From contig NZ_JAMXMY010000002.1 in assembly GCF_024055795.1 (NCBI RefSeq), positions 62,001-126,000 on the forward strand: a DNA stretch of 64,000 nucleotides. Direction: 5' to 3'. Made by a program: the position numbers and the translations under genes. Below the pieces are notes generated by a model, which saw only the letters and a program-made list of their open reading frames with translations, was not told the origin of the DNA and did not search any database. This DNA comes from Actinoallomurus purpureus. Its GTDB lineage: Bacteria; Actinomycetota; Actinomycetes; Streptosporangiales; Streptosporangiaceae. Positions 2,607-19,262 of this stretch are shown in pieces; position 1 is the first letter of the stretch, and every line of letters begins with the position of its first letter.

Positions 2607-3557
2607 ATGACGACGGCGGTGGATCGGCATCGCGTGGTGGTCCTTGTTCTGCCCGGCGTGTCGGCGCTGGAATTTGGGATCGCGATGCAGATCTTCGGGG
2701 CAGACCCCCATTACGAGATGACGGTGTGCACGGACGGCCAGGGCGGACAGGTGCCAAGCGCTGGCTTCACGATCACCGCTTCGGCCGGTCTCGACGCCAT
2801 GGGCGTTGCCGACACTGTGATCGTCCCCCGTTACGAGAACGTCGACGTTCCTCCGTCGTCCGATGTATTGGCGGCGCTGCGCGCGGCGCACGCCCGAGGC
2901 ACCCGCCTCGTCTCCATCTGCACGGGAGCCTTCGCCCTCGCAGCGGCCGGGCTACTCGATGGCCGCCCCGCGACCACGCACTGGCAATACGCCGATCAAC
3001 TGCGCCGGCGATACCCGCGTATCGACGTCCTGCCGAACCAGCTCTACGTCGACGATGGCGACATCCTCACCTCTGCCGGCATTACTGCGGGCGTAGACCT
3101 CTGCCTGCACCTGGTCCGCCTCGACCAAGGCTCTGCGGCGGCCAACACCCGCGCGCGGTTTCTCGTCGCCCCCCCGCGGCGCACAGGAGGCCAGGCACAG
3201 TTTGTCGATCCGATCCGCGCTGACGCGACCGGAGATCGACTCGCCCCTCTAAGGGACTGGATGCTGGAAAACCTTGCGGACGATCTGAGCATCGATGTTC
3301 TTGCGACACGCGCCCACATCTCCCGACGGACCCTCATACGCCGATTCCGGGAAGAGGTCGGCACTTCGCCGATGGCGTGGCTGACTCACGCACGCATCGA
3401 CCGTGCGCGTGAACTATTGGAAACGACGACCATGTCGGTCGAACGTATCGGCCGCCTCACCGGGCTCGGCGCGCCCGCCTCCGTTCGGGCGGCCTTCCAT
3501 CGACAAGTCGGCACTTCCCCACGGGAATACCGGGCCCTTTTCCGTCATTCCGGATAG
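2607..3557 (+). CDS. GlxA-type AraC-family regulator with DJ-1/PfpI domain
   Basis: 316 residues. The N-terminal half is a DJ-1/PfpI amidotransferase-like sensor (VVVLVLPGVSALEFGI; nucleophile-elbow-like VSICTGAFALAAAGLLDG). The C-terminal 100 residues are a double AraC helix-turn-helix (LATRAHISRRTLIRRFREEVG, then IGRLTGLGAPASVRAAFHRQVGTSPREYR). ATG 2607 was chosen because the sensor fold begins immediately. A TATGAT -10 box at 2595-2600 lies six bases upstream, which suggests a leaderless mRNA. A small inverted repeat, TGGCC-CGAA-GGCCA (2573-2586), sits in the divergent promoter and could be its operator. The likely target is the divergent HD hydrolase. Confidence 0.9.
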   Translation: MTTAVDRHRVVVLVLPGVSALEFGIAMQIFGADPHYEMTVCTDGQGGQVPSAGFTITASAGLDAMGVADTVIVPRYENVDVPPSSDVLAALRAAHARGTRLVSICTGAFALAAAGLLDGRPATTHWQYADQLRRRYPRIDVLPNQLYVDDGDILTSAGITAGVDLCLHLVRLDQGSAAANTRARFLVAPPRRTGGQAQFVDPIRADATGDRLAPLRDWMLENLADDLSIDVLATRAHISRRTLIRRFREEVGTSPMAWLTHARIDRARELLETTTMSVERIGRLTGLGAPASVRAAFHRQVGTSPREYRALFRHSG

Positions 3558-3642
3558 AACCGTCGCGCTGGTTAGGGGCTCATTCGCCGGGTGCGCTCGC
3601 TCGACCTGGCTCCCTGGCCCCGCACTTCGCTTTGCATCCGGG

Positions 3643-3661
3643 TACTATCAATTTGATAGTA
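3643..3661. promoter_or_regulatory. Perfect 19-bp palindrome overlapping the HxlR-gene promoter
   Basis: TACTATCAA-t-TTGATAGTA is a perfect inverted repeat with a one-base centre, in unusually AT-rich sequence. It overlaps a promoter-like pair, TTGCAT (3632-3637), a 17-base spacer and GATAGT (3655-3660). The regulator starts 24 bases downstream at GTG 3685. This is where an autoregulatory HxlR dimer would be expected to bind. Confidence 0.75.
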
Positions 3662-3684
3662 TGATCAAGGTGGAGGTTTGCGTC

Positions 3685-4110
3685 GTGACCGAACAACACA
3701 TCGCGACACCGGAACGCAACGTCTACGCGGCGGACTGCCCGACCCGGCAGGTGCTGGACCAGGTGGCGCACAAGTGGACGGTTCTGATCATCGGCATCTT
3801 GTGTGAAGGGCCACATCGCTACGGTCAAATCGCGCGGGCAGTGGAGGGAGTGAGCCCTAGGGTGCTGTCCCGCACGCTGCGCGACTTGGAGCGCGACGGG
3901 CTGGTGCGTCGGGAGCTCCTCAACGCCAGCCCGCCCGCTGTCGAGTACACGCTTACCCCCCTGGGGCAGGGGCTGGAGGAGATCATCTCGCCGATACGGG
4001 ACTGGGCCGAGCGGCACCTTGACGAGATCCACGGCGCGCGAGAACGCTTCGACGACGAGGCCGGGCAGCAGGATCGCACGCCGTGGCAACGGCAGAAGCC
4101 CATGCCCTGA
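3685..4110 (+). CDS. HxlR-family winged-helix regulator
   Basis: About 141 residues with the HxlR core: CPTRQVLDQVAHKWTVLIIGIL, then the recognition region RYGQIARAVEGVSPRVLSRTLRDLERDGLV and the wing VEYTLTPLGQGL. GTG 3685 is preferred over ATG 3661 because AAGGTGGAGG lies eight bases before it and the predicted transcript starts near 3667. HxlR proteins usually repress an adjacent oxidoreductase in response to electrophiles or quinones. Here the next gene encodes an NAD(P)-binding protein, which fits. The conserved Cys near the N-terminus (ADCPTRQ) is a possible sensor residue. Confidence 0.9.
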   Translation: MTEQHIATPERNVYAADCPTRQVLDQVAHKWTVLIIGILCEGPHRYGQIARAVEGVSPRVLSRTLRDLERDGLVRRELLNASPPAVEYTLTPLGQGLEEIISPIRDWAERHLDEIHGARERFDDEAGQQDRTPWQRQKPMP

Positions 4111-4135
4111 TGAACGCTGCGGGCTCAAGGCAGGG

Positions 4136-4157
4136 GTACGGACTCACAAGTCTGTAC
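4136..4157. promoter_or_regulatory. Inverted repeat upstream of the oxidoreductase gene
   Basis: GTACGGACT-CACA-AGTCTGTAC is an inverted repeat with eight of nine arm bases matching. It lies between the HxlR gene and the oxidoreductase it probably controls, 66 bases upstream of that start. It could be a second regulator site or a weak hairpin ending the hxlR transcript. Confidence 0.4.
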
Positions 4158-4222
4158 TGGGCGCCGCTCGCTCGACCGCTTAACGTCGGAAGCGGCAATC
4201 CCAACCTCGAAGGACTCCCCAA

Positions 4223-4870
4223 ATGAGTACCGTCACCATCTTCGGCGCCACTGGCTACGCGGGCGGCGCCATTACCACTGAGCTGCTGGACCGGGGCCAC
4301 GCTGTTGTGGCGGTCGCACGCTCGACCTCCACGCTGACCGAGCGAGCGAATCTGACCGTGGTCTCCGGCTCGTTGCACGACCCGGCCGTGCTGGCGCAGG
4401 CCACGAAGGGCGCCGACGTGATCCTGGTCGCGCTGCCGGCGGGAGCGATCGACGGCGTCCAGTTGATTGACGCGTTGCCCTCCCTGCTCACCACTGCCGC
4501 TGAAGGAGGCGCGCGGCTCGGCATCATGGGCGGGGCGGGCAGCCTGCAGACAAGCCCGGACGGGCCGCTGCTTGTGGACTCACCTGATTTCCCGGCGTCC
4601 GCCCTGGACGAAGCGCTAAGGCACAAGGCGATCCTGGAGGCGCTGCGTAGCTCCGGGACGGAGGTGGACTGGTTTTACGTGAGCCCGGCGGCAGGGTTCG
4701 GCTCCTGGAACCCGGGCAACCGGACCGGTCGCTATCGCACTGGCGGCGACGTGTTGCTCAGTGATTCCAGCGGCAACTCGAACATCTCGGCGGCCGACCT
4801 GGCCATTGCGTTCGCCGAGGAGGTTGAGCACCCGGCGCACCACCGAGAGCGCTTCCACGTTGCTTACTGA
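4223..4870 (+). CDS. NAD(P)-binding atypical SDR oxidoreductase
   Basis: 215 residues opening with the dinucleotide-binding motif TIFGATGYAGGAI (GxxGxxG). It belongs to the atypical short-chain dehydrogenase/NmrA-like group of small NAD(P)H-binding proteins. LMGGAGSL-type and WFYVSPAAGFG segments follow the usual order, and there is no classical YxxxK. An AAGGA ribosome site lies nine bases before the ATG. Placed just after an HxlR regulator, it is probably induced by electrophile or disulfide stress; its substrate is unknown. Confidence 0.85.
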   Translation: MSTVTIFGATGYAGGAITTELLDRGHAVVAVARSTSTLTERANLTVVSGSLHDPAVLAQATKGADVILVALPAGAIDGVQLIDALPSLLTTAAEGGARLGIMGGAGSLQTSPDGPLLVDSPDFPASALDEALRHKAILEALRSSGTEVDWFYVSPAAGFGSWNPGNRTGRYRTGGDVLLSDSSGNSNISAADLAIAFAEEVEHPAHHRERFHVAY

Positions 4871-4915
4871 ACCTCAACCATCTAGGTGCTGCCGGCCGCA
4901 GTGGGCGCTGACCGG

Positions 4916-5887
4916 TCAGGAGCCGCCCGGCGCGTCGGCGTGACGCGACGCCCGTAGGGCGGGGATCAGGGCGGCGACCCGGTCGAGTTGGTCGCGCTGG
5001 GCGCGCAGGTCGAGCGCGCCCAGGCGGATGACGAGGTGGCGTGCTCCTGCGGCGACGTAGCGGCCGAGGCCGTCGAGCACCTCGTCGTCGGAGCCGGTGA
5101 CGACGGCCTGGATCCGCTCCAGATCCTCCAGTGGCATGCCGTACGTGGCCCGCGCGTAGTCCTCCAGGGCGCGGCGGCCGCTCTCCACGCTCTCGTCGAC
5201 CCGTACGGACACGAACAGGGCCGGGGTGATGTCATCGGCCGTACGGCCGGCGTCGGCCGCCGCCTTCCGTACGTCGAGCAGGCCGGTCTCGTAGTCAGTG
5301 GGGTCGGGCGGGTAGGGCAGCCAGCCGTCGTACAGCCTCCCGGTGCGCGCGAGCGCCGCCGGGGTGGCGCCGCCGAGCCAGATCGGCGGGCCGCCGGGGC
5401 GGAACGGCCGGGTCGCGGGCGGGAGGTCGTCGAACCGGAGGATCTCGCCGTGGAACGAGGTCGCCCCCTTCCACAGGTCGCGCCAGAGCGTGACCGTCTC
5501 GTCCAGCCGGGCGAAGCGGCGCTCCCACGGCACCTCCGACAGTGTGTAGAAGGGCCGGCCGAAACGGCCGGGGAAGCCCGCGCCGACCGTCACGGTGAGC
5601 CGGCCGCCGGACAGCAGGTCGATCGACGCGATCGCCTGTGCGGCCTGGACCGGGCGGCGCAGGAACGGCAGCAGCGCTCCGGTCCCCAGCGTCACGCGTT
5701 CGGTCGCCGGGACCAGCGCGGCGAGCATCGTGAGCGCCTCGATGCGCGGACTGATCAGGCCGTCGTTGGCGAAGAGCGAGGTGAAGCCCGAGCGTTCGGC
5801 ACGGCGGCCGAAGGCGACGAGGTCCCGGGGGTCGCCGTCCGGGCCCCACTGGGCGCTTCCGGTCGGGATCAGTACACCGATGTCCAT
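4916..5887 (-). CDS. LLM-class (F420/FMN) flavin-dependent oxidoreductase
   Basis: About 323 residues from ATG 5887 (MDIGVLIPTG); upstream codons in the same frame run into the shared operator. Luciferase-like monooxygenase features include GFTSLFANDG, ERVTLGTGALLPFLRRP, ASIDLLSGGRLTVTVGAGFPG and PPIWLGGATPAALART. It is likely a TIM-barrel enzyme using F420 or FMN; in this type of organism F420 is more likely, but the substrate cannot be predicted. It is divergent from the MmyB-type regulator with 86 bases between starts, and its promoter carries the palindrome shared with the SnoaL-like gene. Confidence 0.9.
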   Translation of the reverse strand: MDIGVLIPTGSAQWGPDGDPRDLVAFGRRAERSGFTSLFANDGLISPRIEALTMLAALVPATERVTLGTGALLPFLRRPVQAAQAIASIDLLSGGRLTVTVGAGFPGRFGRPFYTLSEVPWERRFARLDETVTLWRDLWKGATSFHGEILRFDDLPPATRPFRPGGPPIWLGGATPAALARTGRLYDGWLPYPPDPTDYETGLLDVRKAAADAGRTADDITPALFVSVRVDESVESGRRALEDYARATYGMPLEDLERIQAVVTGSDDEVLDGLGRYVAAGARHLVIRLGALDLRAQRDQLDRVAALIPALRASRHADAPGGS

Positions 5888-5922
5888 GCCGACGATGCTC
5901 ACGCCCGGTGTCGGCGCCCACA

Positions 5923-5938
5923 ATTCCCTGCTGGGAAT
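5923..5938. promoter_or_regulatory. ATTCCC-N4-GGGAAT operator, copy 1
   Basis: ATTCCC-TGCT-GGGAAT is a perfect inverted repeat in the 86-base divergent region between the LLM oxidoreductase and the MmyB-type regulator. The flanks (CACA before it, GG after it) resemble those of the second copy at 7223-7238. The regulator encoded next to it is the obvious candidate binder. Confidence 0.75.
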
Positions 5939-5973
5939 GGCCGCGACTCCGCGTCCTGCCGTACAACAGGCCC

Positions 5974-6756
5974 GTGGACTTCCCCCGTAAGCTCCGCGAA
6001 CGCCGCACCCGCCGGCATCTCAGCCAGCTCGACCTGGCCATGCGAGCGGGCACTACGCAGCGGTACCTCAGCTTCATCGAGTCCGGCCGGTCCGTCCCCG
6101 GCCGGACCATGGTGCTGCGTCTCGCCGAGTCGCTCGAACTGCCACTGCGCGAGCGCAACGAGCTGCTGCTGGCCGCCGGGTTCGCGCCCGCCTACCCGGA
6201 GAGCTCACTCGACGAGCCGGTGCTGGCCCCGGTGCGCACCGCGATCGACCACATCCTCCGCGGTCATCTGCCGTACCCGGCGCTGGTGATCGACCGGAAC
6301 GGCGGCCTGATCGCCGCGAACGACGCGATGAGCCTGATCGCGGAGGGCGCGGCCCCCGAACTGTTCGGCCCGGGAAGGAACGTCTACCGCTTGGCGCTGC
6401 ATCCCGACGGCATGGCGCCCCGCATCCGCAACCTCGCCGAGTGGGCGCGCCACATCCTGACCCGGCTGAGCGATCGGGAGGAGCTGCACGCCGAGCTGGC
6501 GGGCTACGTCCCCGATCTGGAGCCGTCCGCCGGGCAGCTGGGGTTCGCCGTCCCGCTCCATCTGGCGTCCTCACGCGGTGAGCTGCATCTGATGACGACG
6601 GTGACGACGTTCGCCACGGCCGTCGACGTGACGCTCGCCGAGCTGAAGCTGGAGGCGTTCCTGCCGGTGGACGCGGCGACGGCGGAGGCCCTCCAGGAGG
6701 CCGCCGGCCTTCGCCCGTCCGTGTCCGGTGCGATGGATCACTCGGGGAACTGGTAG
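5974..6756 (+). CDS. MmyB-like XRE-family regulator
   Basis: Starts at GTG 5974 (VDFPRKLRERRTRR), 260 residues. The N-terminal XRE helix-turn-helix (HLSQLDLAMRAGTTQRYLSFIESGRSVPG) is followed by an MmyB/MLTR ligand-binding PAS-like domain (YPALVIDRNGGLIAANDAM, NVYRLALHPDGMAPRIRN, then the FAVPLHL region and VTLAELKLEAFLP). Proteins of this type usually sit beside oxidoreductases and respond to small hydrophobic ligands. A near-identical palindrome is present upstream of the divergent oxidoreductase gene and upstream of the convergent SnoaL-like gene, so it probably controls both. Its 3' end overlaps the SnoaL-like gene by 19 bases. Confidence 0.92.
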   Translation: MDFPRKLRERRTRRHLSQLDLAMRAGTTQRYLSFIESGRSVPGRTMVLRLAESLELPLRERNELLLAAGFAPAYPESSLDEPVLAPVRTAIDHILRGHLPYPALVIDRNGGLIAANDAMSLIAEGAAPELFGPGRNVYRLALHPDGMAPRIRNLAEWARHILTRLSDREELHAELAGYVPDLEPSAGQLGFAVPLHLASSRGELHLMTTVTTFATAVDVTLAELKLEAFLPVDAATAEALQEAAGLRPSVSGAMDHSGNW

Positions 6757-8961: not shown

Positions 8962-9842
8962 ACGCCGAGCTGGAGACGAGGCTGCGCGCCGCCGGACTGG
9001 ATCCCCAGGCTGTGGACGGCCTCGTCCGTACGGCGCTGGCCGAGGACGGCGGAAAGGACGTCACCAGCGAGCCGATCTTCGGGTACACCGCCACCGGCCG
9101 CGCCGACATGGTCGCCCGGCGGTCCGGCGTCGTCGCCGGGCTCCCCGTCGCCGAACTCGTCTTCGCGGCGGTCACGGAAGGTGACGGTTTCGGGGACCTC
9201 AAGGTCGTCACCCGGGTCGAGGACGGCTCCCGGGTCGCGCCCGGGGACGTCCTGCTCACCGTCGAAGGCCCGCTCGTACCGCTCCTGCGCGCCGAGCGCA
9301 CCGCGCTGAACTTCCTCACCCACCTGTCCGGCATCGCCACCCTCACCCGCCGGTGGGCGGACGAGATCGCCAGCACCAGGGCCCGGGTCCGCGACACCCG
9401 TAAGACGCTGCCGGGGCTGCGGGCGATGCAGAAGTACGCCGTCCGTTGCGGCGGCGGCGTGAACCACCGCATGTCGCTCTCGGACGCGGCGCTGATCAAG
9501 GACAACCATGTGGCCGCCGCCGGCTCGGTGACCGCCGCGTTCACCGCCGTGAGCACGCCGGGTCTGCACGTCCAGATCGAGTGCGACACCCTCGACCAGG
9601 TGCGGGAGGCGCTGGCCGCGGGGGCGCGGTCGATCCTGCTGGACAACATGAGCGTCGCCGAGATGACCGAGGCCGTACGCCTGACCGAGGGCCGGGCCGA
9701 GCTGGAGGCCAGCGGCGGGCTCACTTTGGACGGGGCCCGCGCTGTGGCCGAGACCGGAGTCGACTACCTTGCCGTGGGAGCGCTGACCCATTCCGCGCCC
9801 GCGCTCGACATCGGCCTTGACCTCACCACAGCGGGGACCTGA
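8958..9842 (+). CDS. nadC: Nicotinate-nucleotide pyrophosphorylase NadC
   Basis: Converts quinolinate and PRPP to nicotinate mononucleotide with loss of CO2. It has 294 residues from ATG 8958, which overlaps the nadB stop. Family landmarks: ALAEDGGKDVTSEP, RTALNFLTHLSGIATLT, DTRKTLPGLRAMQKYAVRCGGGVNHRM, the KDNH active-site segment in LIKDNHVAA, and the C-terminal ASGGLTLDGARAVAETGVDYLAVGALTHS. Its TGA overlaps the coaX ATG, so nadB, nadC and coaX are translationally coupled. Confidence 0.97.
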   Translation: MNAELETRLRAAGLDPQAVDGLVRTALAEDGGKDVTSEPIFGYTATGRADMVARRSGVVAGLPVAELVFAAVTEGDGFGDLKVVTRVEDGSRVAPGDVLLTVEGPLVPLLRAERTALNFLTHLSGIATLTRRWADEIASTRARVRDTRKTLPGLRAMQKYAVRCGGGVNHRMSLSDAALIKDNHVAAAGSVTAAFTAVSTPGLHVQIECDTLDQVREALAAGARSILLDNMSVAEMTEAVRLTEGRAELEASGGLTLDGARAVAETGVDYLAVGALTHSAPALDIGLDLTTAGT

Positions 9843-10633
9843 TGCTGCTCACGATCGACGTCGGTAACACCCACACGGTGCTGGGCCTCTTCGAAGGCGA
9901 GGAGGTGATCGAGCACTGGCGGATCAACACCGACGCCCGGCGCACCGCCGACGAGATCGCCGTCGTTCTGCAGGGCCTCGTGCAGCAGAGCCCGCTGCTG
10001 GCCGAGACCGACATCAGCGGCATCGCCCTGTGCTCCACGGTCCCTTCCGTCCTGCACGAGATGCGGGAGATGTGCCGCCGCTACTACGGCGACGTCACCG
10101 CCGTCATCGTCGAACCCGGCGTCAAGACCGGCGTGCCGATCCGGATGGACAACCCCAAAGAGGTCGGCTCCGACCGCATCATCAACGCGCTCGCGGCCGG
10201 CCACCTGCACGGCGGCCCCGCGATCGTCGTCGACTTCGGCACCGCGACGACGTTCGACGCCGTCTCGGCCAAGGGCGAGTACGTCGGCGGCGCCATCGCA
10301 CCCGGCATCGAGATCTCCGTGGACGCGCTGTCCGCACGCGGCGCCCAGCTGCACAAGGTCGAGCTCGTACGCCCCCGCAACGTCATCGGCAAGAGCACCG
10401 TCGAGGCGCTGCAGGCCGGCATCATCTTCGGGTTCGCGGGCCAGGTCGACGGCGTCGTACGCCGGATGGCGGAGGAACTGTCCGACGACCCCGAGGAGGT
10501 CACGGTCGTGGCGACCGGCGGCCTCGCTCCGCTCGTCCTGGATGAGGCCCGCAGCATCGACGTGTACGAGCCGTGGCTCACGCTCATCGGTCTGCGCCTG
10601 GTCTACGAGCGCAACGTCGGCGTCTCCGGCTGA
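9842..10633 (+). CDS. coaX: Type III pantothenate kinase CoaX
   Basis: Phosphorylates pantothenate in the first committed step of CoA synthesis. 263 residues in the ASKHA-type acetate kinase-like fold: TIDVGNTHTVLGLF (phosphate loop), VGSDRIINALAA, VVDFGTATTFDAVS and GGAIAPGIEISVDAL. It overlaps nadC by one base, so it is expressed with the NAD genes, while the upstream pantothenate genes panC and panD are separated from it by the accessory block. lysS follows after 115 bases. Confidence 0.96.
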   Translation: MLLTIDVGNTHTVLGLFEGEEVIEHWRINTDARRTADEIAVVLQGLVQQSPLLAETDISGIALCSTVPSVLHEMREMCRRYYGDVTAVIVEPGVKTGVPIRMDNPKEVGSDRIINALAAGHLHGGPAIVVDFGTATTFDAVSAKGEYVGGAIAPGIEISVDALSARGAQLHKVELVRPRNVIGKSTVEALQAGIIFGFAGQVDGVVRRMAEELSDDPEEVTVVATGGLAPLVLDEARSIDVYEPWLTLIGLRLVYERNVGVSG

Positions 10634-10748
10634 GGCGCCGACGACCCGCTCGGCGCGCACCTCACCCGCATGCCTCGGCGGCCGAACCCGACTCACGAGG
10701 GGGCTCGGCGGCCGAGGGGGGTCCGCCGGACCGGTAGCCTTCTTAGCC

Positions 10749-12236
10749 GTGAGCGAGTCGTACGACGATCTTCCGGAGCAGATGCGGGTCCGCCGCGAGA
10801 AGGTGGAGCGGTTGCGCGCGAACGGCGTGGACCCCTACCCACTCGGATTTCCGCGCACCGCGACGATCGCGGAGGTCCGCGCGAAGTATCCCGACCTGGA
10901 GCCGGGCGCGTCGACCGGGGAGAAGGCCGGCGTCACCGGCCGGGTCATCCTGGCCCGGAACACCGGCAAGCTCTGCTTCGCCACGATCCGCGACGGCAGC
11001 GGCGACATCCAGGTGATGCTCTCGCTGGCCAACGTCGGCCCGGAGGCCCTGGAGTCCTGGAAGCGCGACATCGACCTCGGCGACCACGTCGGCGTCGAGG
11101 GCGAGGTCATCACCTCCAGACGCGGCGAGCTGTCGATCATGGCGGACCGGTTCGCGCTGACCTCCAAGTCGCTGCGCCCGCTCCCGGAGAAGCACGCCGG
11201 CCTGACCGACCCCGAGCAGCGCGTACGCCTCCGCTACGTCGACCTGATCGTCAACGACGAGGCGCGGCGGATGGCCCGGCTGCGCAGCGACACCGTCCGG
11301 GCGATTCGCGAGTACCTCACCGGCCGCGAGTTCCTCGAGGTCGAGACGCCGATGCTCCAGCCGATCCACGGCGGGGCGACGGCGCGCCCGTTCGTCACGC
11401 ACATCAACGCGTACGACATGGACCTCTACCTGCGGATCGCGATCGAGCTGTACCTCAAGCGGCTCGTCGTCGGCGGCATCGAGAAGGTCTTCGAGATCAA
11501 CCGCAACTTCCGTAACGAGGGCGCGGACTCCACGCACAACCCCGAGTTCACGATGCTCGAGGCGTACGAGGCGTACGGCGACTACGACACGATCGCCACC
11601 CTCACCCGCGAGCTGTATCAGGCCGCGGTGGTCGCCGCGCTCGGCACGACGGTCGTCGTTCACAAGGACCAGGAGATCGACCTAGCCGGAGACCAGTGGC
11701 CCCAGGTCACCCTGTACGGCTCGGTGTCCGACGCGGTCGGCGAGGAGATCACCACCGAGACGCCCATCGAGGACGTCCGGAAGATCCTCGAGCGGCGCGG
11801 CCTGGAGTACGACCCCAAGTGGGGGCAGGGCAAGCTCGTCCAGGAGCTCTTCGAGGCGCTGGTCGAGCACACCCTGGTCCAGCCGACGTTCGTGCGCGAC
11901 TACCCGCTGGAGACCTCGCCGCTCGCCCGCACGCACCGCGACAACCCGCTCCTCACCGAGAAGTGGGACCTCATCGGCTTCGGCACCGAGCTGGGCACCG
12001 GCTACTCCGAGCTGATCGACCCGATCGAGCAGCGCCGCCGGCTGACCGAGCAGTCGCTGCTGGCCGCGGGCGGCGACCCGGAGGCCATGCAGCTCGACGA
12101 GGACTTCCTGCGCGCCCTGGAGTACGCCATGCCCCCCACGGGCGGCGTCGGCATCGGCATCGACCGCATGATCATGGCCTTCACCGGCAAGAATATCCGC
12201 GAGACGATCCTGTTCCCGCTGGTCAAGCCGGAGTGA
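10749..12236 (+). CDS. lysS: Lysyl-tRNA synthetase, class II
   Basis: Charges tRNA-Lys. Starts at GTG 10749 (VSESYDDLPEQM), 495 residues. An N-terminal OB-fold anticodon-binding domain (VTGRVILARNTGKLCFATIRD) is followed by the class II catalytic core: motif 2 FEINRNFRNEGADSTHNPEFTM and motif 3 GGVGIGIDRMIMAF. The segment GTELGTGYSELIDPIEQRRR replaces the ...ELNDP... form of the E. coli enzyme and is usual for actinobacterial LysRS. It is the last gene of the nadB-nadC-coaX group and is followed by a hairpin terminator. Confidence 0.96.
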   Translation: MSESYDDLPEQMRVRREKVERLRANGVDPYPLGFPRTATIAEVRAKYPDLEPGASTGEKAGVTGRVILARNTGKLCFATIRDGSGDIQVMLSLANVGPEALESWKRDIDLGDHVGVEGEVITSRRGELSIMADRFALTSKSLRPLPEKHAGLTDPEQRVRLRYVDLIVNDEARRMARLRSDTVRAIREYLTGREFLEVETPMLQPIHGGATARPFVTHINAYDMDLYLRIAIELYLKRLVVGGIEKVFEINRNFRNEGADSTHNPEFTMLEAYEAYGDYDTIATLTRELYQAAVVAALGTTVVVHKDQEIDLAGDQWPQVTLYGSVSDAVGEEITTETPIEDVRKILERRGLEYDPKWGQGKLVQELFEALVEHTLVQPTFVRDYPLETSPLARTHRDNPLLTEKWDLIGFGTELGTGYSELIDPIEQRRRLTEQSLLAAGGDPEAMQLDEDFLRALEYAMPPTGGVGIGIDRMIMAFTGKNIRETILFPLVKPE

Positions 12237-13148: not shown

Positions 13149-14003
13149 TCAGGCGCAGCCGGGGCTTCCTCGCATGCGATCCAGGACTCGCCGGGCATAG
13201 CCGTCGGTGGCCTGGATCTCGGCCAGCGGAACGAGCGATAGCCGGACCCGTGTCAGCATCGAAACCTTGCGGGAGATGGAGATCGGATGCAGGCAGTTCG
13301 TGGGCAGTTCCTCGATCTCGGTCCATAGGGCGGGCTTCAGCTCATCCACCAGCCGCAGCCGGAACTCCCCGTGGGTACATCGGTAGCACAGCGGAGTCTT
13401 GCCGTGCTCGCCGCCGGCACCCGCTCGACCACGGCCGAAAGCCGTTCCGTCGGCCCTTGCCGCCTCTTTCTGCTCTTCCTCGGCCGCCCGAGGATCGAGT
13501 GACCCGGGGCCGCCCCACTGGAGCCAATACATGTTCCAGCGGGAGGCACGCATCTCGTTGAAGAGGTCCGTCAGCCGGTCGAGCGAGTCACCGTCGCGCG
13601 ACACCACCATCTCGAAGGCGGTGACCGGCACCGGGGCCGCCTGGAGCGCCGCCGCCATCAGCCCGTCGGCGATGTACGGGGTCTCGGCGAACCAGGAGAC
13701 GAACGACGTGAACTCGATCTTCCAGTCGGCGATCCGCTCTTTTAACGGCAGCTCGGCCGCCTCGGCGATGGCGGCATCGATCGCCTCCCACATCGGCTGG
13801 GTCTCCAGATGCAGATCCAGCTCCATCGCCGCGAGAATCCGATCGGCGAGAGGAAGGGTCAACGTTCGGGTGCCGCGTTCGATGGCGCTGATGCTCGACA
13901 CACTCACCCCGGATCGCTCGGCGAGCGCCTGCAGCGTGAGTCGCCGGGACATTCGAGCATTCCTGATCAGTGCGCCAAGTCGCTGATTGCTGTCATCGGA
14001 CAT
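13149..14003 (-). CDS. XRE-family helix-turn-helix protein with unknown C-terminal domain
   Basis: 284 residues from ATG 14003 (MSDDSNQRLGALIRNA); ATG 14012 is possible. The N-terminal 65 residues are a clear XRE helix-turn-helix (RLTLQALAERSGVSVSSISAIERGTRTLTLPLADRIL). The remaining 220 residues, with SFVSWFAETPYIADGLM, NMYWLQWGGPGSLDP and a C-terminal LSLVPLAEIQATDGYARRVLDRMRG, match no family I recognise. Actinomycete XRE proteins of this size often pair with DUF397 proteins, but none is present here; the partner is the DUF1266 gene. It may be a regulator or the DNA-binding half of a two-gene system. Confidence 0.7.
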   Translation of the reverse strand: MSDDSNQRLGALIRNARMSRRLTLQALAERSGVSVSSISAIERGTRTLTLPLADRILAAMELDLHLETQPMWEAIDAAIAEAAELPLKERIADWKIEFTSFVSWFAETPYIADGLMAAALQAAPVPVTAFEMVVSRDGDSLDRLTDLFNEMRASRWNMYWLQWGGPGSLDPRAAEEEQKEAARADGTAFGRGRAGAGGEHGKTPLCYRCTHGEFRLRLVDELKPALWTEIEELPTNCLHPISISRKVSMLTRVRLSLVPLAEIQATDGYARRVLDRMRGSPGCA

Positions 14004-14533
14004 GAGCGCCATCGTGCGCCTGGCAGGGCCGCCGCATCCATCCACTGTTCACAGTCTGTGGAAAACTCGTCACGCCACAGCGATGCACGTGCAGCGCCCC
14101 CCGGAGGAAGCCCTCCCGTTCCAGGGCTTCCCGCCAGACGGGAAAACTCTCGCCTGAGTAGAACGCGCTGGAGCAGATGGCCCCCGCCGACGGAGACTCC
14201 CCTGCGAGCCCCGCCGCAGAGCACGATCGGCTGCCTGTCCGAGCCTCCGTTGACTTTGGGGAAATCGCCGTTCTGGTGCGGCTGGGAAGGGCGACTATCC
14301 CAAAGTCAACGAGGACGCGGGCACCGGGCGTACGCCTGCGCCAGGACCCACGAGGAGCGCGAGCCACAGCGCCGAGATCACCAGGTCGGACGGGACGGAT
14401 GGCGACGTCGTTCATCTGATCAACCTCGCGCGCCTTCGGGACGCCTTGATCACCATCGACATGCGTGGTCGCCACCCGCTCCAGCGGCCCTCGGCCCAAC
14501 ACCGCCGCGACAGCCTGGGGATGCCCCACCGGT
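14004..14533. other. 530-base gap without a supportable gene
   Basis: The gap lies between the TPR/ATPase gene and the XRE gene, both on the minus strand. Open frames on either strand here have arginine/serine/proline-rich low-complexity translations typical of shadow frames, and I accept none of them. It holds a long inverted repeat (14248-14311) and must contain the XRE-gene promoter. Confidence 0.55.
14248..14311. repeat. 22-base inverted repeat with 20-base spacer
   Basis: Left arm 14248-14269 and right arm 14290-14311 share CGTTGACTTTGGG/CCCAAAGTCAACG and TCGCC/GGCGA, with a few mismatches between these blocks. As RNA it would form a long stem with a 20-base loop. It could be a bidirectional terminator, a recombinase site or the remains of a small mobile element. 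Confidence 0.55.
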
Positions 14534-16555
14534 TCAATCGGCGGATTCAAGCTCAACCCGCAGCTGAAGGATGTCCGGATCGTCCGGAGCCAGCGTTAGC
14601 GCGTGGGCGATATCGGTGCGCGCCTCGGCGAGTTGCCCGGCGGATCGGTGCGCGACGGCACGGTTGTACAGCAGCGCGGCGTCTTCGCCGGCCGCCAGGG
14701 CGCGCGTGAGGTCCCGTACCGCAGCTGTCGGGTCGCCGTGCGCTTCGGCCAACGCCGCCCGGCCGGCGAGCGCCGCGGCGAGTCCGGGTTCCGCGGCGAG
14801 CGCCGTGTCGAAGTCGCAACGAGCCTGTTCGACATCGCCGGCGGCGGCCGCCAGCTGACCGCGTACACAGATCAGGTGCGGGTTGCCGGGATCCACGGAG
14901 AGCCCGGTCCGTATGTCATCCGCCGCGCCGTCATCGTCTCCGATCATGGTTCGCAGTCCGGCCCGGTTCACATACGCGTCGACGTATCCGGGTTCGAGTT
15001 CGAGAACCCGGCCTAGATCACGCAATGCTGCACAGGCGTCACCGTGTGCCTGATGGAGGACGGCGCGGTTGAAGTACATCTCGGGGAAGGGCGGGCCGAG
15101 CCGGATCGCGATGTCGTACGCGGCCAGCGCCGCCTCGTCCTGTCCCGCCGAGCGCAGCAGATTGGCGCGGTCGAAGTGATATTCGGCGTAGTCCGGGTCG
15201 ACGGTGAGCAGCGCGTCGTACGCACGCAGGGCCTCCACGGTGTCGCCGAGCACGGCCAGCAGACGCGCCCGGTTGGACAGCAGGGTGCACCGATCGAGTA
15301 GATGCCGGTCCGATGGCAGCTCACGATCCATTCGCGCGATGCCCTCGTCGACGAGCCGCAGCGCCCCCGCACGGTTCCCCAGCCGGAGTTCGATCAGGGC
15401 TTTTCCGTTCTGGTAAAAGATCTCGTAGAAGGCTCGATCCTGCGGGTCGGGGAGCAGCGACGCGACGGCGATCGCTGCGTTGATCGATGCCATCGCCCGC
15501 ATGTGGTCGTGCCGTTTCGGGTCGTGGTGGCGGGTGTAGAGCATCGCGATCTCATAGCCGGCGACGCGGTGCACGGCCGGATCAGCGGAGGCCGCGTACG
15601 CCTCGTCGTAGAGCGCCTCGCTCTGCTCGCCCTGGCCGAGCAGCGCCAGGGACAGCGCCATCTGCCGGGTGAACCGCCACCAGCTGCCGCCCCCGGGTTC
15701 GGTTCGTGCCCGCCCACGCCGGCCGAGGTCGACGCACGCCTCGTGGAAGGCCAGGGCGAAACAGTGATCCTGCGCGGCGGCGAGCGCGGTGACGGCGGCG
15801 TCGGGGTCGGTGCCGCGTTCGCGGTGGTACGGGATGGCGCCGAGACGCCATGACCAGTCTCCGGTGACGAGTTCGTCCGCGCGAGCGTCGTGCAGCCGCG
15901 CTCGCTCGCTCGCTTCGAGTTGTTCGTAGGCCCGGAGCGCCTGTGGGTCGTCGCATGTGCCGTCGGACGCCACAAGGCGTGCAGCAAGATCACCTGAATC
16001 TTCGGCTCCGAGCGGTGCGGCGTCGGTGTTCCCCTCGATGATCTCGGCCTGCGGCCAGCCCTCGATCGATGTCCTGGTGCACAGGAGCAGGGACAGCAGC
16101 GACGGATCGAATCGCCGCAGCAGTATCGCGATCAACTCGCGGTCCGTCGCGTCGGCCTGATCGACGTTCTCCAGGACCAGAGCGGCGGATCCCGTATTCA
16201 GCCGCCTGAGGTACTCATTAAGAAAGTCGGCTATTCCGTGGGCGATTCGCGCCGTCCGGAGGCGAGAGTGGACGCGGGTGCGTTCCGCGTCCGGGATCTG
16301 ATGGAACAGCGTCTCCCGCCCGATCGGAATCGTGGCGCGAAATTCCGGCGCGACAGTGCGGATCTCCAGGTCGTGCCGCTCAACCAGGTCCGGTGCGATG
16401 GCGAGGGCCGTGGGAACGACCGCCCTGATGATCGCGCCGCCTGCGGTGTAGGGGCCACGGAGGGCGGCATGCGCGTCGATTACCGGCGTTAAAAGTTTCG
16501 GTAGGCCCAAGGAATCGACGAGGCTTTCTCGATCCCATCTCGGGGGAACGGTCAT
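14534..16555 (-). CDS. TPR protein with degenerate STAND-like ATPase region
   Basis: About 673 residues from ATG 16555 (MTVPPRWDRESLVDSL); an ATG at 16588 is the alternative. The N-terminal 200 residues look like a STAND/LuxR-type ATPase that lacks a recognisable P-loop (LRGPYTAGGAIIRAVVP is where it might lie) but keeps a Walker-B-like ALVLENVDQADATDRELIAILLRRF and a sensor-like LLLCTRTS. From about residue 270 onward there are tetratricopeptide repeats, clearest in YHFDRANLLRSAGQDEAALAAYD, MYFNRAVLHQAHGDACAALRD and LYNRAVAHRSAGQLAEART. There is no signal peptide. It lies directly downstream of a 25-residue peptide gene and divergent from a second TPR gene. A role in sensing or handling that peptide is inferred. 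Confidence 0.8.
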   Translation of the reverse strand: MTVPPRWDRESLVDSLGLPKLLTPVIDAHAALRGPYTAGGAIIRAVVPTALAIAPDLVERHDLEIRTVAPEFRATIPIGRETLFHQIPDAERTRVHSRLRTARIAHGIADFLNEYLRRLNTGSAALVLENVDQADATDRELIAILLRRFDPSLLSLLLCTRTSIEGWPQAEIIEGNTDAAPLGAEDSGDLAARLVASDGTCDDPQALRAYEQLEASERARLHDARADELVTGDWSWRLGAIPYHRERGTDPDAAVTALAAAQDHCFALAFHEACVDLGRRGRARTEPGGGSWWRFTRQMALSLALLGQGEQSEALYDEAYAASADPAVHRVAGYEIAMLYTRHHDPKRHDHMRAMASINAAIAVASLLPDPQDRAFYEIFYQNGKALIELRLGNRAGALRLVDEGIARMDRELPSDRHLLDRCTLLSNRARLLAVLGDTVEALRAYDALLTVDPDYAEYHFDRANLLRSAGQDEAALAAYDIAIRLGPPFPEMYFNRAVLHQAHGDACAALRDLGRVLELEPGYVDAYVNRAGLRTMIGDDDGAADDIRTGLSVDPGNPHLICVRGQLAAAAGDVEQARCDFDTALAAEPGLAAALAGRAALAEAHGDPTAAVRDLTRALAAGEDAALLYNRAVAHRSAGQLAEARTDIAHALTLAPDDPDILQLRVELESAD

Positions 16556-16605
16556 GACGCGATGACGAGGCGACACCTCAAGCTCCATCTACGGTATCGG
16601 TGTCT

Positions 16606-16645
16606 GGCGACTGCCGGGCCTTTCGGCCACGGCTCGGCAGTCGCC
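16606..16645 (-). terminator. Nested hairpin between peptide gene and TPR gene
   Basis: On the minus strand, GGCGACTGCCG pairs with CGGCAGTCGCC (11 bp), and the loop contains a second stem, GGCC-GAAA-GGCC, with a GNRA-type tetraloop. It lies 15 bases after the peptide stop codon and before the TPR start. It probably limits read-through so that the peptide is made in excess, or it stabilises the peptide mRNA. Confidence 0.65.
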
Positions 16646-16660
16646 GATGCTTTCAGGAAA

Positions 16661-16738
16661 TCACGGAGCGCCGTGCGCCGTGGCCGCCTTGCCGGCCAGT
16701 TGTTTTATCTCTGGCTTGTGCACGGCTATTTTCTTCAT
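16661..16738 (-). CDS. 25-residue cationic peptide gene
   Basis: ATG 16738 to TGA 16661 encodes a 25-residue peptide that begins MKKIAVHKPEIK and ends TAHGAP. It has five lysines, one glutamate, two histidines and no cysteine or serine. A very strong ribosome site, AAGGGAGGGG, lies eight bases before the ATG on the minus strand, and TTGACA (16815-16810) with a weak TTGAGT -10 lies further upstream. It has no hydrophobic signal sequence, so it would be a signalling peptide, a RiPP-type precursor or a regulatory micropeptide. No modifying enzyme is adjacent; the neighbours are two TPR proteins and an MFS exporter. I do not recognise the family. Confidence 0.65.
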   Translation of the reverse strand: MKKIAVHKPEIKQLAGKAATAHGAP

Positions 16739-16809
16739 GCGTAGCACCCCTCCCTTCGCATGAAACCATGGATTGGGTCCTGGATCACTCAACCCTGTGG
16801 TTTGCGGCC

Positions 16810-16850
16810 TGTCAAGTGGTTGACGCAGGCTCGGTGATGCCGGATAGCAT
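16810..16850. promoter_or_regulatory. Back-to-back divergent promoters
   Basis: On the minus strand TTGACA (16815-16810) drives the peptide gene. On the plus strand TTGACG (16820-16825) with TAGCAT (16845-16850) drives the TPR/MFS genes. The two -35 boxes face each other, four bases apart, and form the inverted repeat GTCAA-GTGG-TTGAC. A single bound protein could switch both directions. Confidence 0.6.
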
Positions 16851-16857
16851 GCAGCGC

Positions 16858-17988
16858 ATGCCAGCGGACGAAGTGCGTGAGCTGCTCGCCCAAGCTGTTT
16901 CGCGGCGGCATGTCGGTGACTATCGAGGTGCGGAGAAGGTCATCGTCCGGGCGCTGGCCGCCTCCCGTGAATTAGTGCATAAGAGGTACGAGGCCGACGC
17001 GCTGACCGAGCTCGGTGTCGTGCAGTCGATGACCGGAGCCGTATCGAAAGCGCTACTCAATCTGGATCAATCTCTCGCCATATATCGACGTCTCGAATGT
17101 GGTTCCGGAGAGGCCCGAGTCCTCTGCATGATCGGTCAGGCGAAGCACCTCGCCGGTGATTATGCATCTGCATTCCCGTACTTCGCTCAATCTCTTGATT
17201 TCTGTCTCGCGAATAAGGACCGGTCCGGTGAGGCCACCGCCAGGATCTATCTCGGGATCGCTCACTACCGGACCGGCGAATATGCCGCCGCGTCGGCGAG
17301 CTATGAACGAGCTCTCGACCTGTGCCGCGATCTCGGCAACAGGCTGAGCGAAGCCAACGCGCTGCATTTCGACGGAGTCGTCCGGCTGGTGACCGGAGAC
17401 CTCGCCAAGGCCGAACAGCGGCTCGCGGGCTCCCTGGACATCTATCGTGAGCTGGGGAACGGACTCGGGCAGGCCAACGCTCTGGTGAACCTCGGCGTTG
17501 TGCGCTATCTATCGGATGATCTCCCGGGGGCGACCGCTCACATCCTCAATTCTCTTCGGCGGTCGCGGGCCATTCCGTACCCCGTCGGCGAGGCCGACTG
17601 CCTCCGTGAGCTGGGCGTCGTCCAGTTCCTGTCGGGCGATGACCCGGCCGCGAGGGAGAGCCTCGCCCAGGCGGTCGACATCTTCCAGGCCGTCGGTGAC
17701 CGTGTCGGGCATGCCGAGGCACTCAACCGCCTCGGGACGGTACTGTGCTCCGCGAGCCGCCCCGGCGACGCCCGCGGCCGATTCTCCGCGGCACTCGAGC
17801 TGAGCCGCGCGACGGGTTGCCGGTTGGAAGAAGGACGCGCCATTGAGGGGATCGGCCACTGCCTGGCCCTGGCCGGAGATACGGAAGCGGCTGTCGATCA
17901 CCTGAACCGGGCACTCGCCGTGTACGACTGTATTGGGGTCCCCGATGCCCGCCGCGTCATGGCGGATCTCCCACGGCTTGCTCGGTGA
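16858..17988 (+). CDS. Tetratricopeptide repeat protein
   Basis: About 376 residues built almost entirely of TPR units of roughly 40 residues, for example EADALTELGVVQSMTGAVSKALLNLDQSLAIYRR, ATARIYLGIAHYRTGEYAAASASYERALDLCRDLG and EALNRLGTVLCSASRPGDARGRFSAALELSR. These resemble the C-terminal TPR part of AfsR/SARP regulators, but there is no DNA-binding domain. In-frame starts exist at 16834, 16837, 16849 and 16858. The TAGCAT box at 16845-16850 points to transcription starting near 16858, hence a leaderless ATG there. It overlaps the MFS gene (GTGA). Its base composition is more AT-rich than its neighbours, suggesting acquisition. Confidence 0.82.
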   Translation: MPADEVRELLAQAVSRRHVGDYRGAEKVIVRALAASRELVHKRYEADALTELGVVQSMTGAVSKALLNLDQSLAIYRRLECGSGEARVLCMIGQAKHLAGDYASAFPYFAQSLDFCLANKDRSGEATARIYLGIAHYRTGEYAAASASYERALDLCRDLGNRLSEANALHFDGVVRLVTGDLAKAEQRLAGSLDIYRELGNGLGQANALVNLGVVRYLSDDLPGATAHILNSLRRSRAIPYPVGEADCLRELGVVQFLSGDDPAARESLAQAVDIFQAVGDRVGHAEALNRLGTVLCSASRPGDARGRFSAALELSRATGCRLEEGRAIEGIGHCLALAGDTEAAVDHLNRALAVYDCIGVPDARRVMADLPRLAR

Positions 17989-19262
17989 CCCGTGCGGCCA
18001 GGGCACGGAAGGTTGAAGCCGGGCGAGCGGGAGTGACGCGGGCCGCCTCTTTGTGGCGTCACCGGGACTTCATGCTGCTGTGGGGCGGCCAGACGATCAA
18101 TATGACGGGCACGCAGGTCAGCCAGCTGGCGGTCCCCCTGGTCGCGCTGTCCGTGCTGCACGCGTCCGCGTTTCAGGTGAGCCTGCTGTCGGCCATGGGG
18201 TTCGTGCCGTACGTGCTGGCCGGGCTGCCTGCGGGCGCGCTGGTCGACCGTTTCCGGCGCCGGCCGTTGATGGTGTGGTGCAGCCTGTCCCAAGGACTGG
18301 TCCTCGGATCCGTGCCGGTCGCCATCGTGTGCGGTGACCTCACTCTGTGGCAGTTGAGCGTGGTCGCGTTCATCGTCGCCTCGCTCGCTGCCCTCTTCGA
18401 TCCCGCGTACCAGAGTTATCTGCCGTCGCTGCTGCCAGCGAGGCAACTCGTCGACGGCAACGGGAAGCTGGGCGCCTCTTACGCGTTCGCGACGGTGGTC
18501 GGGCAGAGCACGGCCGGCTGGCTGGTCGCCGCGCTGGGAGCCGCCGGGACGATCGGGGTCGACGCGGTCTCCTCATTGATGAGCGCGGCGTCCCTGAAAC
18601 TGATCGCCGCACGGGAACCGTCTCCGGAACGGCACGGCACCCGGATGCGGGCGGAGATCGGCGAAGGTCTCCGCTACGTGTTCCACGACCGGCTGATGCG
18701 ACCCGTCGTCCTGGCGAACACGATGGTCTCGGCGGGGATCGGCGCCTCGTGGTCGCTGTGGGTGCTGTACGTCGTCCGCGACCTGCACTGGCCGATGGTC
18801 GTCGCCGGCCTGTGTCAGGGGGTCGCCGCCGTCGGCGGCGTGCTGGGCGGACTGTGCACCGAACCGCTCGCCAGGCGGCTCGGTCTCCCTTTGCTGATGC
18901 TGGTCACCACGCCGATGTACGTACTGGACCTGGTGCCGACCGTGCTCGTTGGGCCGGGTCTGACCGGTCAGGTCGTGGTCACCGTCGGATACACCGTCGC
19001 CCTGGCCGGAGAATTCGCCTACGTCAACGCCAACCTCAGCTACCGTCAGCTCATCTGCCCGCCGGACCTGCTCGGCCGGATGAACGCCACGACACGATGG
19101 CTGTCATGGGGCATCCGGCCGCTGTTCACCCTGATCTTCGGCCTGATCGCCACCTGGATCGGGGTACGGGCGGCGCTCAGCCTCGCGGCCGGCCTCTTCG
19201 CGTTCCCGTTCGCCATCCTCGTCGCCTCACCGCTGCGCGGGCGCACGCGAGAACGTCGGTGA
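17985..19262 (+). CDS. MFS exporter (MFS_3/EntS-like)
   Basis: 425 residues, about 12 membrane segments, with the typical DHA3/EntS-type opening WRHRDFMLLWGGQTINMTGTQVSQLAVPLVAL and the cytoplasmic loop AGALVDRFRRRPLMVWCSLSQG. These carriers export small molecules, siderophores or macrolides. GTG 17985 overlaps the TPR stop, so the two are made together. Adjacent to a peptide gene and two peptide-binding-type (TPR) proteins, it is a candidate exporter for the peptide or its product; that link is inferred from position only. Confidence 0.9.
   Translation: MTRAARARKVEAGRAGVTRAASLWRHRDFMLLWGGQTINMTGTQVSQLAVPLVALSVLHASAFQVSLLSAMGFVPYVLAGLPAGALVDRFRRRPLMVWCSLSQGLVLGSVPVAIVCGDLTLWQLSVVAFIVASLAALFDPAYQSYLPSLLPARQLVDGNGKLGASYAFATVVGQSTAGWLVAALGAAGTIGVDAVSSLMSAASLKLIAAREPSPERHGTRMRAEIGEGLRYVFHDRLMRPVVLANTMVSAGIGASWSLWVLYVVRDLHWPMVVAGLCQGVAAVGGVLGGLCTEPLARRLGLPLLMLVTTPMYVLDLVPTVLVGPGLTGQVVVTVGYTVALAGEFAYVNANLSYRQLICPPDLLGRMNATTRWLSWGIRPLFTLIFGLIATWIGVRAALSLAAGLFAFPFAILVASPLRGRTRERR

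Follow-up and report, generated by a model that had tools for sequence, protein, structure and literature searches.

A short-peptide gene family that co-occurs with a tetratricopeptide-repeat protein gene in Actinoallomurus purpureus and its relatives

In a 64,000-nucleotide stretch of the Actinoallomurus purpureus genome (contig NZ_JAMXMY010000002.1, positions 62,001 to 126,000; hereafter the window, in whose numbering window positions are given), a gene for a basic 25-residue peptide lies between genes for two tetratricopeptide-repeat (TPR) proteins, TPR1 and TPR2, the latter followed by a gene for a major facilitator superfamily (MFS) carrier. The peptide belongs to a family whose genes are conserved, change as coding DNA does and co-occur with TPR1. 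The family and its dedicated TPR partner look like a short-peptide system not described so far, acting in either peptide processing or peptide signalling. Literature searches with peptide motif strings or the gene combination, mainly of open papers and with figures not searchable, returned no description, and Pfam and NCBIfam scans of the peptides yielded nothing usable.

Codon changes were compared between 20 loci of the TPR1 clade designated A1. In the peptide frame, 52% of pairwise codon changes were synonymous, versus 9–10% in the shifted frames. The peptide open reading frame (ORF) itself showed 76% ungapped identity, versus 26% for the 80 bases upstream. A chance ORF was ruled out by this codon-change pattern; a preliminary description of this DNA had named a pattern typical of non-coding DNA as evidence against the peptide, and the opposite was found. 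Judged by its codon changes, the peptide gene is real. The strong ribosome site and basic character ascribed to it in that description were also recovered, in the form of a Shine-Dalgarno sequence and an isoelectric point (pI) of 10.2. The 69 clade A peptides that were collected had a median pI of 11.3 and together contained 3 cysteines and 3 aromatic residues (F, W, Y). Exactly 24 amino acids were found in 62 of them (63 as collected, one being without a start codon), and the common form at TPR1 loci was the 24-residue MKKIIVRKPGxxxLTGxSSVIHKG. The tail IHKG occurred at 21/21 A1 loci and at 0/11 loci of clades A2/A3, indicating that the peptide tail tracks the TPR1 clade. Used as a query, the window peptide gave one match in its own genome.

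TPR1 relatives, counted at E ≤ 1e-40 in 297 genomes drawn from the order, were present in 140. At 27 of 29 non-self TPR1 loci a 24-residue peptide ORF of the common form given above was located just upstream of TPR1, and the remaining 2 had a related peptide ORF farther upstream. A profile of the window peptide and 11 chosen relatives was used to search 80 TPR1-positive genomes out of the 140 and 80 TPR1-negative ones, the latter picked by handle number from the genomes without a TPR1 match. The profile matched all 80 TPR1-positive genomes at E ≤ 1 and 77 of them at E ≤ 2e-8, matches to its own 12 members being circular; the weaker matches were in G214 (4e-5), G243 (3e-4) and G234 (0.19). None of the 80 TPR1-negative genomes had a match at E ≤ 1e-3 (best 0.0017, within a 600-codon frame), a comparison of 80 with 80 in which the two groups belong partly to different genera and are not independent cases. 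The contrast held in genus g1 (2 positive, 6 negative); genus g19 had one positive genome (G151) and 11 negatives examined. In the genus of the window, 2 of 8 genomes contained the peptide, namely its own and the other TPR1-positive genome.

Peptide and TPR1 were also co-located. Among the matches listed for the 80 TPR1-positive genomes there were 93 TPR1 places; for 75 of these, a same-strand peptide match (E ≤ 1e-6) lay no more than 1 kb upstream. When the distance was extended to 5 kb on the same strand and sister-type matches (E < 0.1) were counted, this number rose to 89. Of the four places without a match, two contain sister-type peptides by eye (G234, locus L059, and G268:C1, locus L067), one is a contig end (G151:C776), and at one, G173:C62 (L070), no peptide was found. 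At A1 loci, which share a chromosomal neighbourhood, the peptide often lay about 40–90 nucleotides 5′ of the aligned TPR1 start. Among 40 further strong peptide matches, 29 had a TPR1 homolog within the fetched stretch; the other 11 included L143, with TPR2 beside the peptide, L134, where an MFS gene follows the peptide, L153, near a contig end, and L131 and L132, without a recognised partner. Conservation of the peptide upstream of homologous TPR genes, proposed as a check in the preliminary description, was thus found at most of the first loci and of the listed places, and homologous TPR/MFS loci did carry the conserved small ORF. The functional link, which then rested solely on gene order, now has further support from the co-occurrence of peptide and TPR1, from their co-location and from a recurring four-gene set.

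In the window, the peptide and TPR1 genes are read on the minus strand, in that order, and divergently from TPR2 and the MFS gene on the plus strand. The features of the locus are as follows.

14534–16555, minus strand: TPR1 (alternative ATG at 16588), with an N-terminal domain of about 240 residues without a P-loop, then a TPR superhelix (residues 249–673 of the model).
About 16606–16645, minus strand: strong hairpin without a T-run, between the peptide stop codon and the TPR1 start.
16661–16738, minus strand: peptide ORF of 25 amino acids, MKKIAVHKPEIKQLAGKAATAHGAP, a divergent member of the MKKIxV(R/H)KPGxxxL(T/S)G...H family.
16747–16754, minus strand: Shine-Dalgarno sequence GGGAGGGG, 8 nucleotides 5′ of the peptide ATG.
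16739–16857, no strand assigned: divergent intergenic region with an inverted TGTCAA-4-TTGACG near 16811–16826, read by eye.
16858–17988, plus strand: TPR2, an all-TPR protein of TPR_12 type; the start near 16858 was our choice.
17985–19262, plus strand: MFS carrier, above the Pfam MFS_1/MFS_3 cut-offs.

A segment of 186 nucleotides around the hairpin was more stably folded than 198 of 200 shuffled sequences (z −2.69), and a scan for canonical terminators listed none at 16606–16645 on the minus strand; the hairpin is possibly an attenuator or a terminator. The peptide and TPR1 had been described as one transcript, which, given the strong hairpin in between, may be interrupted. The inverted TGTCAA-4-TTGACG may represent back-to-back −35 boxes; a sigma-70 scan of the divergent intergenic region found no promoter site.

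TPR1 comprises 673 amino acids when read from 16555. Hidden Markov models (HMMs) for TPRs matched above cut-off and AAA_16 below threshold, over the far side of that domain. The stretch in the position of the P-loop reads GPYTxGGAL, and the residue at the placed Walker lysine was G in 28, S in 3, D in 2, A in 2 and R in 1 of 36 aligned sequences, that of the window included. With no lysine in 36/36, TPR1 departs from STAND NTPases, in agreement with the P-loop-less STAND-like region noted beforehand. No helix-turn-helix (HTH) was found in TPR1 or TPR2 by HMM scans. The structure predicted for TPR1 had a pLDDT of 94.2. In VIA-align, LGN with bound peptide (Z 22.1) and the TPR domain of OGT (Z 21.6) gave the best rows for its TPR part, and several of the LGN/OGT superhelix matches were solved with bound partners; Foldseek returned a Pol II elongation-complex chain in row 1 and the OGT TPR domain in row 2. 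The N-terminal domain was hardly covered in the fold search. Asparagines at position 6 of the repeats stood out: of the seven repeats compared, two had them in 36/36 sequences and a third in 33/36. In the TPR1 tree, the window protein (P0005) and that of L032 branched deep, next to clade B, with weak support (80/47); nine extra rows with internal stops, likely in a wrong frame, clustered apart and were disregarded.

TPR repeats were likewise recognised by HMM in TPR2 (376 amino acids from 16858), whose listed reading frame starts at 16600 and runs antisense through the peptide. The MFS protein (P0004) showed 12 transmembrane-like segments in a simple hydropathy scan; it passed the Pfam MFS_1 and MFS_3 cut-offs and stayed below that of TIGR00900. 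Among the 297 genomes searched, five besides that of the window had a P0004 ortholog with at least 55% identity. In G184, G276, G138 and G291, all of genus g7, peptide, TPR2, MFS and TPR1 genes lie within about 5 kb. Their order is rearranged relative to the window: TPR1 is preceded by the MFS gene on one strand, and TPR2 leads into the peptide gene on the other. Identities to the window proteins were 57–58% for MFS and 41–43% for TPR2. Since the genus g7 TPR1s fall in the A2/A3 clade, apart from P0005, two TPR1 lineages are associated with the TPR2-MFS pair. The MFS start overlaps the TPR2 stop by 4 nucleotides in the window, as expected from the coupling of an all-TPR protein to MFS in the preliminary description; this coupling is not conserved, the two genes being divergent in L181–L184.

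In G184, G138, G291 and G173, the best genome-wide match to TPR2 was the copy adjoining the peptide (E 2e-74 to 9e-52; next match 2e-11 to 1e-33). TPR2 as a generic TPR neighbour was rejected, the peptide-adjoining copies lying far above the genome background. TPR2 was found beside the peptide at the window, L136/L181–L184 and L143 only. In G276 (L182 6781–6870, minus strand) the C-terminal third of the peptide is altered, and the adjoining TPR2 matches over a shorter stretch. Exporter genes took other forms elsewhere. An MFS gene directly follows TPR1 in L055–L057, a relative of that in L055 does so at 7 of the 40 further peptide loci, and in L143 (G173; 2922–5102, minus strand) an ABC ATPase (ABC_tran, DrrA1-3_C) and an ABC-2 permease replace the MFS protein, divergent from TPR2 and peptide.

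In a sister branch, clade B, a further gene, gene15, is located between peptide and TPR1 and encodes a membrane protein with an HExxH motif. At least 28 gene15 loci were found in named genomes, including Streptomyces, Kitasatospora, Lentzea, Micromonospora, Nocardia and Ktedonobacter. Among the matches listed, TPR1 adjoins gene15 in 27/28 loci, and the peptide was present by pattern at 26/28 and by eye at one more (L231). Scans of gene15 against sequence libraries left it unrecognised. In the structural model its N-terminal domain has three strands and three helices; the model is weak overall (pLDDT 52.6), and the resemblance of this domain to a recognition element (RRE) of ribosomally synthesized and post-translationally modified peptides (RiPPs) is the sole part used here. 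The top Foldseek rows were complexes of the lasso-peptide RRE TbiB1 with leader (probability 1.00, target TM 0.64, E 0.1), PqqD, ThcOx and McbBCD chains were lower in the list, and no row reached E ≤ 0.001. An RRE-like fold is thus predicted for this domain. In the genome of the window, gene15 had no match at E ≤ 1e-15, window proteins not having been searched for other RRE types. The sister peptides (24 compared) had a mean entropy of 0.55 bits over residues 2–15 versus 2.09 over residues 16–24.

The clade B arrangement, KKIxVRKxGxVRLT with a variable, often Cys- and Tyr-bearing tail, the HExxH protein with its RRE-like N-terminal domain, and TPR1, is apparently undescribed; its loci are scattered (L039, L048, L052, L054, L058, L059, L066, L067, L193 and L212–L239), L238 having a relative of the HExxH protein only. 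In L048, two near-identical peptides with the tails YVCYQ and YFCYE stand in tandem before gene15, upstream of 9712–11013 (minus strand). One gene family (cluster 20) occurs on the opposite strand beside the operon in L052, L053, L054 and L058, the copy in L054 being a BTAD/NB-ARC (SARP-type) regulator. At L087, a Streptomyces plasmid locus, an annotated BTAD regulator and a ThiF protein precede a gene15-like gene. L231, of Ktedonobacter robiniae and thus outside Actinomycetota, has gene15, TPR1 and a peptide-like ORF.

Conservation, coding nature, co-occurrence and co-location, together with exporters at part of the loci and the predicted TPR and sister RRE-like folds, were what was observed; from these we infer that the peptide is bound, cleaved, exported and employed as a signal. 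The reading we propose, whose probability we place a little short of even, is a dedicated short-peptide system in which the TPR1 partner binds the peptide, exporters move the peptide, or what is made from it, out of the cell and TPR2 serves as another adaptor. The peptide gene would yield a precursor of 24–25 residues. Its N-terminal half, MKKIxV(R/H)KxGxxxL, may be the recognition segment, a role proposed because of the leader/tail pattern and the RRE-like domain in the sister branch, and the C-terminal half (about residues 15–25) the clade-specific part. TPR1, the near-constant partner, would grip the peptide in its TPR superhelix. Because of the LGN/OGT-like superhelix and the near-constant pairing, this predicted binding is the most likely step. 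The degenerate STAND-like N-terminal domain could then provide an output or docking surface. The presence of exporters at some of the loci points to release of the peptide, or of its product, from the cell, putatively through the MFS carrier or, at some sister loci, through an ABC exporter or a different type of MFS. TPR2 may handle or sense the peptide as a second adaptor, and in the sister branch the RRE-fused membrane HExxH protein would bind the recognition segment and trim the peptide.

Several observations weigh against this reading. Outside the family, distribution of both forms was sparse, with gene15 in 3/296 genomes of the phylum and an A1-type peptide in 10/296 genomes of the class, one of them outside the family. 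In L115, L116, L117, L120, L125 and L149 the peptide occurs without TPR1, apparently at the A1 chromosomal site, where related genomes carry both genes; all six genomes also hold a peptide-TPR1 pair elsewhere. HMM scans recognised no TPR1 domain beyond the repeats and the weak AAA_16 trace, and positions in the concave groove of TPR1 were not more conserved than others (p 0.36). Entropy of leader and tail differed weakly in clade A (1.13 vs 1.47 bits). A hydropathy scan, used as a simple proxy for a Sec signal, detected no hydrophobic Sec-type stretch in the 69 peptides (maximum over 9 residues 0.31 in the window peptide and at most 1.7 among the 69). The fifth P0004 ortholog (G206:C14, 58%) has neither peptide nor TPR nearby; elsewhere in G206, the peptide and TPR1 are accompanied by a different, 25% identical MFS gene divergent to them. 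Finally, a P0004-like MFS gene beside the pair was missing in 20/21 A1 loci, L062 having part of one, and MFS as a general rule of the system was rejected on this ground.

Several alternatives were considered. Possible, although we consider it unlikely, is a RiPP-type product secreted for competition, with the peptide as precursor, TPR1 as maturation scaffold or enzyme-like partner, and TPR2 and MFS as accessory and export or immunity functions. The RRE-like domain on the membrane protein between peptide and TPR1 and the conserved leaders and variable tails of the sister peptides are consistent with such a product. The daptides, which according to PMC10036551 use an RRE-dependent intramembrane peptidase, offer a precedent: their short precursors beside an RRE-fused membrane peptidase resemble the sister branch, not the window copy. 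Their leader motif, given there as ELExMEAP, differs; the word 'tetratricopeptide' is not in the main text of that paper. No daptide aminotransferase, decarboxylase or methyltransferase was among the scanned window neighbours, sister flanks not having been scanned for them. No RiPP maturase or other known modifying enzyme was recognised among the 10 window neighbours scanned, other ORFs not being included and a novel enzyme type being able to escape. This agrees with the absence of a maturase stated in the preliminary description, but at the sister loci the HExxH protein bears a predicted RiPP-recognition fold. The A1 tails are moreover constant across genera, and the clade A peptides are poor in Cys and aromatic residues. 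Most antimicrobial cores are not known to be constant in this way. HaaT (NCBIfam NF041717) of cyclophane RiPP clusters was the best named model for TPR2, over profile positions 666–881 of 882, but with 217 bits against a cut-off of 1125 and the rest of HaaT missing; no radical SAM enzyme was among the scanned window neighbours. EntS and MefA resemble the window MFS protein at the level of the MFS_3 family, although it scored below every listed NCBIfam cut-off. A biphenomycin-type cluster has an MFS protein, a putative metalloprotease and a TPR-rich enzyme.

A pheromone of RRNPP type, which would leave the cell, mature, be taken up again and be read inside by TPR1 or TPR2, appears improbable. 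As outlined in PMC10075063, the RRNPP signature comprises a propeptide of 10–100 amino acids, Sec-type secretion, a receptor of 250–500 amino acids, TPRs that bind the mature peptide, and adjacent genes. The 25-residue window peptide is within the propeptide range and adjoins a TPR protein gene, the fold of TPR1 is near those of peptide-binding TPRs, and some loci have exporters. At 673 residues, however, TPR1 is too long, the peptides show no Sec-type stretch, no HTH was found, TPR1 bears a P-loop-less STAND-like domain, and the phylum is different. TPR2 would fit the receptor length, yet stands beside the peptide at few loci. The peptide signalling or export reading of the preliminary description gains from peptide-TPR1 conservation and from exporters at part of the loci, and loses by two absent points of the RRNPP signature. 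Because sister loci carry a predicted RiPP-recognition fold on an HExxH protein, a RiPP-like reading deserves at least as much consideration as one of RRNPP type.

A cis-acting leader peptide (attenuator) tuning TPR1 expression would agree with the short distance before TPR1 at A1 loci and with the hairpin in the window. It is nevertheless very improbable, for in L181–L184 the peptide gene comes after TPR2 instead of preceding TPR1, at six loci it lacks TPR1, and in the sister branch it precedes gene15; an exclusively cis-acting role was ruled out by these rearranged and TPR1-less loci. We give hardly any weight to a toxin-antitoxin or defence module in which TPR1 would be a degenerate STAND sensor: the STAND-like remnant, the basic peptide and the matches of TPR2 to general TPR models in PADLOC (best 2.9e-16) are set against TPR1 without a PADLOC match, the shared chromosomal neighbourhood of A1 loci and the TPR1-less peptide copies, and anti-phage defence was rejected, TPR2 matching TPR-protein models alone.

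Nothing unusual was seen among the ten scanned window neighbours, which comprise a luciferase-like monooxygenase, an MmyB-type regulator, an FAD-binding flavoprotein, a type III pantothenate kinase, a class II tRNA synthetase, IclR and LacI regulators, an ABC ATPase, a GNAT protein and a UvrD-like helicase. Beyond TPR1, on that side of the module, there are two XRE-type HTH regulator genes (13149–14045, minus strand, and 5908–6756, plus strand); the former had no homolog in 10 compared loci.

According to PMC10075063, peptide signals read by TPR receptors are known mainly from Firmicutes, and signals of Actinomycetota are typically enzyme-made small molecules. The dedicated short-peptide system proposed here might be another way in which Actinobacteria, and at least one Ktedonobacter, communicate by peptides, with a 24-residue precursor that shows no secretion signal, a P-loop-less STAND-TPR reader, MFS or ABC exporters and RRE-protease processing in the sister branch. 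We regard this extension as doubtful; it is likened to cognate signal-receptor pairs because peptide tail and TPR1 clade go together. Short ORFs of this size are probably easily overlooked in annotation. The leader-like motif is common to window-type peptides and RRE-protease operons and, with the family scattered in Streptomyces, Kitasatospora, Lentzea and others, KKIxVRKxGxxRLT offers a handle for genome mining. A peptide family coupled to a single TPR partner, present in about half of the order as sampled, would make a peptide pathway in Actinomycetota accessible to experiment.

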